Positions 14,095 to 40,390 of a stretch of 64,000 nt of DNA are shown here, piece after piece; the stretch's first letter is position 1; the number at the start of each line of letters is the position of its first letter. The notes below the pieces were generated by a model. That model did not search any database, had not been told where the DNA came from, and saw nothing but the letters and a program-made list of their open reading frames with translations. The DNA is taken from assembly GCA_947503035.1 (NCBI GenBank), contig CANNCD010000001.1:1116001-1180000 (forward strand), given 5' to 3'. Origin of the DNA: an uncultured Halocynthiibacter sp. Its GTDB lineage: Bacteria > Pseudomonadota > Alphaproteobacteria > Rhodobacterales > Rhodobacteraceae. Both the position numbers and the translations under genes were made by a program.

Positions 14095-14331
14095 ATGTTT
14101 ACCATTGAACACGAATTCGACGCCACGGTTGTAACCCTTGTCGATGAGGGCGAACCACATCTCAAAGAGGACGTGATCATTCACGCCTTTGAGGATTGCA
14201 TCACTGTCACGCAGTTTGATGCCCGCACAGATAGCGACAACACCATCACCCTGTCCTTGCGCCAGCTGCATGAACTTGGGGTGGCGCTGGACCTGCCCGA
14301 AGGTGTCTATAAGTTCAAATCAAAGGACTAG
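14095..14331 (+). CDS. Small conserved protein, function unknown
   Basis: A 78-residue acidic, soluble protein with a beta-strand-rich pattern and the ending PEGVYKFKSKD. There are no cysteines beyond C58-C59 region, no membrane segment and no motif I can name. It is divergent from the M48 lipoprotein gene, sharing a 75-bp promoter region. Confidence 0.6.
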   Translation: MFTIEHEFDATVVTLVDEGEPHLKEDVIIHAFEDCITVTQFDARTDSDNTITLSLRQLHELGVALDLPEGVYKFKSKD

Positions 14332-38167: not shown

Positions 38168-38225
38168 GGACAATTTTCGCGATTTCCCCCCATTTTTGTC
38201 TTTGTTTGGACATCATTCCGTGCGA

Positions 38226-38245
38226 TGTGTTCACGCATGAACACA
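38226..38245. promoter_or_regulatory. Perfect palindrome (candidate operator) before the MarR-Sat-CysC frame
   Basis: TGTGTTCA-CGCA-TGAACACA is a perfect 8-bp dyad 16 bp before the ATG at 38262. Symmetry, size and place fit the binding site of a dimeric winged-helix regulator such as the one encoded by the following frame. A C-rich TTTCCCCCCATTTTT lies just upstream at 38183-38197. Confidence 0.6.
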
Positions 38246-38261
38246 CTTTGAGTCGCCAAAC

Positions 38262-40337
38262 ATGTCCACCCACGCTGAAAAAACAAAATTGGATGAGGAA
38301 GATCAACTCTTCCGCCTCTTACGTCACTGCGATGTGGCGTCGGATGCATCCCAGCGTGCGATTGCGACGGCGATTGGTGTTTCATTGGGGCGATCCAATT
38401 CGTTGCTTCGCTCCGCGTCTGATGCGGGCCTGATCACCATTCGTGAACGGTCCGGACCGGATAAACGCCAACGCTTCGCCTATTCGCTTACCCATAAGGG
38501 TGCGGCGGAAAAAGCGCGGCTCACTGACCGATTTCTTGCGCGCAAGCTTGCAGAATACAATTCTTTGCACGCGGAACTAACTGGCACCAGCAGCAGCTTG
38601 GTTCCGCTAAAACACAGGACGAATATCATGGAAAATAACCTTTCCCCGATCCCCGAACTCTTTGTCTCTGCCGACAGCGCGCAGAAACTCAAAATGGAGG
38701 CGGCTGATCTTGTATCTTGGGATCTGACCCCACGCCAAATCTGCGACCTCGAACTTCTTATGAACGGTGGCTTCAACCCACTTAAGGGTTTCTTGGGCCA
38801 AGAAGATTACGACAGTGTCGTTGAAAACATGCGCTTGGCGGACGGCTCTCTTTGGCCAATGCCGATCACACTTGATGTGGACGCAGAATTCGCTGGCAAA
38901 CTAGAAGCCGGCCAAGACATCGCCCTTCGTGACCAAGAAGGCGTGATCCTTGCGACCATGACCGTCACTGACAACTTTAAGCCAAACAAAGCCGTAGAAG
39001 CCGAAAAAGTATTCGGTGCCGACGACGAAGCACACCCTGCTGTGAACTACCTTCACAACACTGCTGGTGAATTCTATCTTGGTGGTCCAGTAACCGGTAT
39101 CCAACAGCCGGTTCACTATGACTTCCGCAACCGTCGCAACACACCAAACGAGCTTCGCGCCTATTTCCGCAAAATGGGCTGGCGCAAAGTTGTTGCGTTC
39201 CAAACACGCAACCCACTTCACCGTGCGCACCAGGAACTTACATTCCGCGCCGCACGCGAAGCACAGGCCAACCTTTTGATCCACCCAGTTGTGGGCATGG
39301 GCAAACCAGGCGACATCGACCACTTTACACGTGTACGTTGCTATGAGGCGGTTCTTGATCAGTACCCAGCTTCTACAACATCCATGTCCCTATTGAACCT
39401 TGCCATGCGTATGGCTGGTCCACGCGAAGCTGTTTGGCACGGTCTGATCCGCGCGAACCACGGCTGTACACACTTCATCGTTGGTCGCGACCACGCTGGC
39501 CCCGGTTCCAACAGCCAAGGCGAAGATTTCTACGGTCCATACGACGCGCAGGAATTGTTCCGCGAGCACGAAAAAGAAATCGGCATCGAAATGGTCGACT
39601 TTAAGCACATGGTTTGGGTTGCTGAACGTGCGCAATACGAAGCCATCGACGAGATCGAAGACAAAGATGACGTGACCATCCTGAACATCTCTGGCACCGA
39701 GCTTCGTCGCCGTCTGCAAGAGGGCCTCGAGATCCCAGAATGGTTCTCTTTCCCAACTGTTGTGGAAGAACTTCGTCGCACCAAGCCACCACGCGCGAAA
39801 CAAGGTTTCACCGTGTTCTTCACTGGCTTCTCCGGTTCCGGCAAATCCACCATCGCGAACGCGCTTATGGTGAAGTTGATGGAAATGGGCGGCCGTCCAA
39901 CGACCCTTCTGGATGGTGACATCGTTCGTAAGAACCTGTCCTCCGAGCTTGGCTTCTCTAAGGAACACCGCGACCTGAACATCCGTCGCATCGGTTACGT
40001 TGCATCCGAGATCACCAAAAACGGTGGTATCGCGATCTGTGCGCCAATCGCGCCATACGCAACAACACGCCGCGCGGTTCGTGAAGACATCGAACAATAC
40101 GGTGCCTTCATCGAGGTGCACGTTGCGACCTCCATCGAGGAATGTGAACGCCGCGACCGTAAGGGCCTTTATAAGCTCGCACGCGAAGGCAAAATCAAAG
40201 AGTTCACAGGCATCTCTGACCCATATGACGTACCAGTGAACGCTGAAATCGTTGTGGAAACAGAGAACGTGGACGTGGACAACTGTGCGCACCAAGTTCT
40301 GTTGAAACTCGACAGCATGGGTCTGATCAAAGCCTAA
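38262..40337 (+). CDS. MarR-type HTH domain in frame with bifunctional ATP sulfurylase/APS kinase
   Basis: One uninterrupted frame of 691 codons. Residues 1-110 form a winged-helix domain resembling MarR-type EPS-associated regulators (SQRAIATAIGVSLGRSNSLL recognition region, then LTDRFLARKLAEYNSLHAEL). From Met123 (38628) comes a full sulfate adenylyltransferase (QTRNPLHRAH near 314) and APS kinase (P-loop GFSGSGKST at 522-530), making PAPS from sulfate. AGGA lies 8 bases before 38628, so translation may start there too, giving the usual 569-residue enzyme. Thus either a three-domain fusion or two products. The enzyme part has strongly biased codons, as in highly expressed genes; the HTH part does not. 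Confidence 0.85.
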   Translation: MSTHAEKTKLDEEDQLFRLLRHCDVASDASQRAIATAIGVSLGRSNSLLRSASDAGLITIRERSGPDKRQRFAYSLTHKGAAEKARLTDRFLARKLAEYNSLHAELTGTSSSLVPLKHRTNIMENNLSPIPELFVSADSAQKLKMEAADLVSWDLTPRQICDLELLMNGGFNPLKGFLGQEDYDSVVENMRLADGSLWPMPITLDVDAEFAGKLEAGQDIALRDQEGVILATMTVTDNFKPNKAVEAEKVFGADDEAHPAVNYLHNTAGEFYLGGPVTGIQQPVHYDFRNRRNTPNELRAYFRKMGWRKVVAFQTRNPLHRAHQELTFRAAREAQANLLIHPVVGMGKPGDIDHFTRVRCYEAVLDQYPASTTSMSLLNLAMRMAGPREAVWHGLIRANHGCTHFIVGRDHAGPGSNSQGEDFYGPYDAQELFREHEKEIGIEMVDFKHMVWVAERAQYEAIDEIEDKDDVTILNISGTELRRRLQEGLEIPEWFSFPTVVEELRRTKPPRAKQGFTVFFTGFSGSGKSTIANALMVKLMEMGGRPTTLLDGDIVRKNLSSELGFSKEHRDLNIRRIGYVASEITKNGGIAICAPIAPYATTRRAVREDIEQYGAFIEVHVATSIEECERRDRKGLYKLAREGKIKEFTGISDPYDVPVNAEIVVETENVDVDNCAHQVLLKLDSMGLIKA

Positions 40338-40360
40338 GCTTTGACGCCATAGACAAACGA

Positions 40361-40390
40361 AAGGCCCCGCCAGAAATGGTGGGGCCTTTT
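40361..40390 (+). terminator. Rho-independent terminator of the sat-cysC gene
   Basis: AAGGCCCCGCC pairs with GGTGGGGCCTT across an AGAAAT loop, then TTTTGCG. It lies 23 bp beyond the stop. Confidence 0.92.

Follow-up and report, generated by a model that had tools for sequence, protein, structure and literature searches.

Results and discussion

A winged-helix domain in frame with a PAPS synthase

The window analyzed here, a 64,000-nucleotide stretch of DNA from an uncultured Halocynthiibacter sp., carries on its forward strand an open reading frame of 691 codons (38262 to 40337) with no inner stop. The reading frame itself, profile matches and fused relatives all indicate a 691-residue long product composed of a winged helix, an ATP sulfurylase and an APS kinase. 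Residues 121 to 690 match the profile for bifunctional sulfate adenylyltransferase/adenylylsulfate kinase (NF004040) at 1034.3 bits, above the cut-off of 669 and with both domains complete, and the Pfam models PF14306, PF01747 and PF01583 (PUA-like, ATP sulfurylase and APS kinase domains) are matched nearly full length. The motifs QTRNPLHRAH, GRDHAG and GFSGSGKST, which we take to be enzyme motifs of ATP sulfurylase/APS kinase, were seen by eye in the 691-residue translation. The nearest solved sequences, 1i2d (682.5 bits) and 1m8p (679.8 bits), presumably fungal ATP sulfurylase chains from Penicillium, align over residues 140 to 689, leaving the head outside the match. In fungal ATP sulfurylase the C-terminal domain serves as a site for allosteric control by PAPS; unlike 1i2d and 1m8p, the fusion enzyme has APS kinase motifs that look intact by eye.

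Among ten neighboring proteins scanned against NCBIfam, we recognized Lrp-like, thioredoxin reductase (trxB), PgeF, PurE and GroEL proteins, and three had no match; within these ten, the fusion gene is not located in an exopolysaccharide (EPS) gene cluster of the kind expected for the EPS-associated MarR family TIGR04176. Just 3' of the gene, an inverted repeat followed by T (40360 to 40389) was noted by eye. It is a likely terminator, absent from the output of a generic promoter/terminator scan.

The DNA-binding head is a MarR/TIGR04176-like winged-helix domain with a long C-terminal helix (residues 1 to 108; 38262 to 38585, forward strand), delimited by profile, model and dN/dS. Residues 12 to 107 align with positions 2 to 97 of the 105-position TIGR04176 (MarR_EPS) profile, at scores that stay below the curated cut-off of 88 bits (77.3 with the whole protein and 81.9 with only the head); two other fused heads likewise fall below it, at 83.7 and 86.2 bits. 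AlphaFold, given 33 sequences, modeled the full-length protein poorly (mean pLDDT 51.6), and that model was set aside. Modeled on its own, the head comes out as a winged helix ending in a long helix, with a mean pLDDT of 85.0, in keeping with the winged helix-turn-helix fold that defines TIGR04176. With this model, MarR proteins rank first in Foldseek (E 9.1e-5), and PadR and Sso10a proteins lead in VIA-align (Z 13). A sequence search of the PDB with the head by itself gave nothing at E up to 1. The fused heads group together in a tree of 77 short rows, as a single clade of 60 rows with support of 100/95.

Over 24 independent pairs, dN/dS was 0.15 for the head (residues 9 to 108), 0.32 for the short linker and 0.10 for the enzyme. 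Purifying selection of this strength indicates that the head is very probably translated and maintained. The linker (residues 109 to 122; 38586 to 38627, forward strand), recognized from the model, dN/dS and alignments of the joint, has low model confidence and contains an internal ribosome site. The original prediction, made from the sequence alone, had described a complete winged helix continuous with a complete bifunctional enzyme, and this is borne out by the TIGR04176-like and NF004040 matches within 691 codons free of stops.

The fusion is conserved in Rhodobacteraceae

We searched the 122-residue head against genome_contigs and kept the best 80 of 236 encoded relatives. At all 80 loci head and enzyme share one frame, uninterrupted by a stop; at one (L039), the frame ends inside the enzyme at the contig end. 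The names on 79 of the 80 are, we presume, those of Rhodobacterales-type organisms; strains of Leisingera, Shimia and Sulfitobacter are among those with the fusion. The other, L060 (JAHVJD010000004.1), is titled Nocardioides marinus; it is a typical Rhodobacteraceae fused locus and probably mislabeled.

Within a sample of 395 genomes of the home family, which overlaps partly with the genome_contigs loci (some contigs are identical), 94 genomes including that of the window have a head of the type fused to this enzyme, 53 to 75% identical to the window head (E 8.5e-33 or better) and each in frame with the enzyme, the frame being cut by a contig end in two of them (G028 and G336). The next heads listed are 34 to 50% identical and lie in frames of 111 to 225 residues. 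Among the matches listed, many family genomes have the enzyme without this head. The 20 highest-scoring unfused enzyme genes from the family search all lack any head, and trxB is nearby in 15 of them, as in the window. A class-level search of 387 sampled genomes gave, among the matches listed, three rows in frames of at least 690 residues, all from the home family.

Judged from these alignments, the fusion is real and conserved. The original prediction had proposed looking in relatives for a stop between the parts, and had reasoned that the fusion would be only apparent if relatives always kept the two proteins separate and proteomics showed only the 569-residue form. No fused locus examined has such a stop, and relatives are far from always separate, with 94 of 395 family genomes fused and other members without any head. 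We also rejected a chance or annotation artefact, given the 80 of 80 and 94 of 94 loci in frame and the dN/dS of the head, as well as separate, overlapping genes for regulator and enzyme, given that a stop between the parts occurs in no fused locus examined.

One family genome (G262, L180:2098-4203) has a second MarR-enzyme fusion of divergent sequence. Its linker is longer, GTTCA-N4-TGAAC occurs twice in tandem, and GAGAGGA precedes an internal ATG. The tree of 77 short rows could not tell whether this fusion arose independently, and no other genome of the same draw closely matched its head.

An internal start conserved at the joint

Within the linker, the internal Shine-Dalgarno sequence AGGA (38616-38619, forward strand) precedes an in-frame ATG at 38628 by 8 bases, as originally noted, and is conserved in relatives. 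From this conserved start position the frame would give a short product of 569 residues (38628 to 40337, forward strand). It would be the bifunctional ATP sulfurylase/APS kinase with no DNA-binding head, and its N-terminus resembles that of unfused orthologues. We examined 132 loci (L003-L111, L196-L217 and the window), all of which could be matched; comparing 300 bases around the joint leaves 123 distinct ones. Of these, 122 have AGGA 8 nucleotides 5' of the start position, counting as positive, at a shifted place, one locus whose AGG/start pair is one codon further upstream (L205); the exception has AGGT (L198). The start codon is ATG, GTG or TTG in 122 of 123, the exception having ATA (L073). 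The pattern expected of an internal-initiation proteoform, a conserved in-frame Shine-Dalgarno sequence plus start codon, is found in 122 of the 123 distinct loci.

In the window and the 80 loci, the codon of Met123 is ATG in 67, GTG in 11, TTG in 2 and ATA in 1; valine at this position is always GTG (11 of 11) and leucine always TTG (2 of 2). Arg119 is encoded by AGG in 81 of 81 sequences, a codon that is rare elsewhere in the same genes (33 of 4,118 arginine codons in 80 genes, leaving out L039). A single-codon test placed the strongest bias among the positions tested at position 119 (z 24.3 versus 15.5 for the next, position 121); when synonymous constraint was scanned in windows of 7 codons, the joint did not stand out. 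Twenty loci drawn from the bottom of the fused ranking vary in the residues at the joint, yet retain AGG and the start.

That AGG(A/T) and a start codon are retained while the surrounding residues change argues strongly for internal initiation; two products are very probably made from the one frame. The 691- and 569-residue forms originally suggested for this frame are strongly supported by the pairing of AGG(A/T) with a start in 122 of 123 distinct loci.

A shared RNA structure was also considered as the reason for the conserved AGGA and rejected, since a strong upstream stem is found only in the window. There, a hairpin just 5' of the AGGA (38571 to 38607) has a z-score of -3.49; a similar stem in L003 reaches -1.24, and the other four of the six sequences folded lack it, so it is not a shared element.

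A palindrome over the promoter-like region

Across 81 aligned upstream regions, a -35-like box is conserved (CTTTGT at 38200 to 38205, forward strand; family consensus CTTTGC). A conserved -10-like box, TGCGAT (38221 to 38226, forward strand; family consensus TGCRAT), its role presumed from conservation and position, touches the left edge of a conserved palindrome, the putative operator TGTGTTCA-CGCA-TGAACACA (38226 to 38245, no strand assigned), with its core GTTCA-N4-TGAAC at 38229-38242. Between the operator and the first start codon lies a further box conserved in the aligned regions, CTTTGAGTCG (38246 to 38255, forward strand), which may serve the long form as a weak ribosome site. A generic sigma-70 scan called no promoter at the -35- and -10-like boxes (38200-38226).

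The palindrome, TGTGTTCA-N4-TGAACACA, is complete in the window (16 of 16 positions) and matches at least 13 of 16 positions in all 80 fused loci, overlapping the promoter-like region. A further 52 loci, partly duplicates and including the divergent fusion, score at least 12; the sole exception, L110, is cut off by its contig end 46 bases from the match. It is missing at all 20 unfused enzyme genes examined, where the best score is 10 of 16. Searching whole genomes for the exact form TGTTCA-N4-TGAACA gave 23 sites among 48 fused genomes, of which 18 lie immediately before the fusion; 27 of these genomes lack an exact 16-base copy altogether. Among 48 unfused genomes there are 8 such sites, none at the enzyme gene. 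Four loci (L044, L073, L076 and L082) show an additional or variant palindrome upstream, with GTTCT in the left half.

The home genome contains six exact core sites, five inside long frames and one at the fusion gene, which is the sole exact site judged intergenic, a call made from mechanical frames with antisense ones ignored. At one mismatch to the 16-base pattern there are 11 sites, 10 of which overlap a frame of at least 80 codons, and none of the 11 precedes a recognized EPS or sulfur gene. The operator at the fusion gene itself also overlaps an antisense frame of at least 80 codons, so overlap alone proves little. Allowing up to two mismatches gave 158 sites versus 31 in the control; 19 of those listed (L118-L136) were read in context, and no second convincing site was seen among the sites listed. 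A one-mismatch palindrome at 14096-14111 of the window, overlapped by no frame of 80 codons, lies upstream of a minus-strand frame of 234 residues that looks like a lipoprotein. We rejected a wide regulon, the exact core sites being inside long frames in five of six cases and at the fusion gene in the sixth.

Stand-alone relatives carry the same palindrome

From the 395-genome search we chose 16 stand-alone head genes and scanned the 400 bases before each match. The core was found with at most one mismatch in 9 of 16, five of them exact, versus 0.12 expected from shuffles; the remaining seven have no site within one mismatch in those 400 bases. Ten plasmid-borne stand-alone genes (L224-L233), fetched from 20 hits, all have it at this threshold (seven exact, versus 0.09 expected), starting 82 to 104 bases before the gene, with a single match elsewhere in 39,124 bases. 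All ten are annotated as EPS-associated MarR proteins, and all have sugar-nucleotide or polysaccharide genes within 2 kb. The palindrome thus accompanies the head family in both fused and stand-alone members, and this association is the strongest evidence so far for its binding by the head; by the same comparison, GTTCA-N4-TGAAC is a probable operator for TIGR04176 EPS regulators.

In another family genome (G376, L178:6997-9375), an EPS-type MarR gene with an upstream palindrome is followed, about 260 bases on, by a second, unfused copy of the enzyme. The surrounding EPS cluster includes polysaccharide export, YjbH, NusG-like and sugar-nucleotide genes. Together with the divergent fusion of G262, this cluster suggests that such heads were recruited from EPS clusters.

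The home genome encodes three PF13469 sulfotransferases (loci L220 and L222, on contig C10), two of them adjoining a glycosyltransferase-like frame, the latter recognized by eye, and it is plausible that PAPS from the fusion enzyme feeds them. It also encodes two PF01507 proteins, one with and one without cysteine pairs by eye. We take such pairs to be an APS reductase motif, and the difference suggests that PAPS may serve both cysteine synthesis and sulfation.

One gene, probably two proteins

These observations suggest a simple arrangement. Initiation at the first start would produce a 691-residue autoregulator in which a complete PAPS synthase carries a MarR-type head at its N-terminus; the head would bind the palindrome on its own gene's promoter and repress that gene, and the internal ribosome site would supply a plain 569-residue PAPS synthase. 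We consider it probable that one gene encodes these two proteins, an autorepressor-enzyme and a free enzyme. We infer that cells make both proteins and that the head recognizes the palindrome; we expect repression to follow, since the palindrome overlaps the -10-like box.

With no stop between the parts, the head would only be made attached to the enzyme, which makes feedback on transcription possible. Transcription could then respond to how much enzyme is present, to its ligand state or to the proportions of long and short subunits in shared oligomers, as in trigger enzymes. Modulation of the head by the enzyme part is an attractive and more speculative idea. The fullest version, a homeostat in which the regulator exists only as the head of the enzyme, and the long/short ratio and ligand state (for example, PAPS) set operator occupancy, we put forward tentatively, as a possibility with the odds somewhat against it.

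Other readings concern which products are made. Perhaps only the 691-residue fusion is produced, and the AGGA and start inside it are left over from the ribosome site of an ancestral enzyme gene. The joint does resemble a head that lost its stop before an enzyme gene with a retained leader, the divergent fusion also has AGGA shortly 5' of an ATG, and the windowed constraint scan shows no peak at the joint. A relic should decay, however, and AGG(A/T) with a start persists in 122 of 123 distinct loci while neighboring codons and residues vary, making this explanation improbable. The converse, that only the 569-residue enzyme matters and the upstream frame is rarely translated, so that the fusion is only apparent, could appeal to the first start, which by eye has at best a weak GAG-type leader, the AGGA being stronger. 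We regard it as very improbable, given a head under purifying selection (dN/dS 0.15) that forms a clade of 60 rows, comes with an operator and is uninterrupted in every fused locus examined.

The remaining readings accept the long form and differ over what its head does. It might mainly control EPS genes, coupling PAPS supply to EPS sulfation, much as originally proposed. The ten plasmid stand-alone relatives all have sugar-nucleotide or polysaccharide genes close by (within 2 kb), the EPS cluster of G376 pairs an EPS-type MarR gene with a second copy of the enzyme, and home-genome sulfotransferases adjoin a glycosyltransferase-like frame. Against this, the only exact core site judged intergenic in the home genome is that of the enzyme gene, and none of the 11 one-mismatch sites precedes a recognized EPS or sulfur gene; an EPS role for the fused form is thus unlikely. 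Of the overall interpretation first offered, the conserved fusion and its two probable products are supported, and EPS control by the fused form is not supported: the conserved site is at the gene's own promoter, with no second convincing site among those listed. Finally, some MarR proteins activate, and the head could activate its promoter, for instance when sulfate activation is limiting. This we find rather doubtful, as the palindrome overlaps the -10-like box and likely transcription start of the presumed promoter, favoring repression.

Relation to known systems

The fused head resembles TIGR04176 regulators in aligning with their profile, and stand-alone members share the upstream GTTCA-N4-TGAAC core; unlike them, it scores below the cut-off, is joined to an enzyme, forms its own clade and has its site at a sulfate-activation gene. 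With NF004040/PRK05537 enzymes the fusion has in common a near full-length match and the proximity of trxB (15 of 20 unfused loci and the window), to which it adds a 122-residue DNA-binding head, its own putative operator and an internal start. PutA, BirA and NadR are trigger enzymes, in which a metabolic enzyme has a DNA-binding domain that regulates transcription. If our inference holds, the autorepressor-enzyme would work in the same way, with the domain and a conserved promoter site found here, presumably without relation by descent. It differs from them in placing a MarR-type head on a PAPS synthase and in having a conserved internal start that would release a head-less enzyme.

N-terminal proteoforms made from in-frame starts of one gene include the long and short forms of CheA and ClpB and IF2 alpha/beta (PMC11005335). 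The predicted 691- and 569-residue pair is similar in deriving two proteins from in-frame starts of one gene, and unlike those pairs in that the part removed would be a transcription regulator aimed at its own promoter. No publication found describes a MarR-PAPS synthase fusion in its title or abstract opening. A transposon insertion in Ruegeria pomeroyi maps to the ATP sulfurylase gene SPO0900 (PMC7426152), and a TIGR04176-type EPS-associated MarR name appears as an incidental expression result (PMC10599003).

Conclusions

In a group of mostly marine bacteria, an early start in this fused gene appears to add to a PAPS synthase a DNA-binding head that probably switches off its own gene. Rhodobacteraceae are abundant in the sea, and to our knowledge the control of sulfate activation in them is poorly described; the fusion offers a concrete, testable regulator of this step with a probable operator. 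It also points to two starts as an evolved feature of the gene, one that would escape annotation limited to a single protein per frame, and its GTTCA-N4-TGAAC core provides a probable operator for TIGR04176 EPS regulators. If the tethering matters, this would be a compact case of an enzyme regulating its own gene, and should the homeostat prove true, a PAPS synthase would read its own product or abundance and report directly to DNA.
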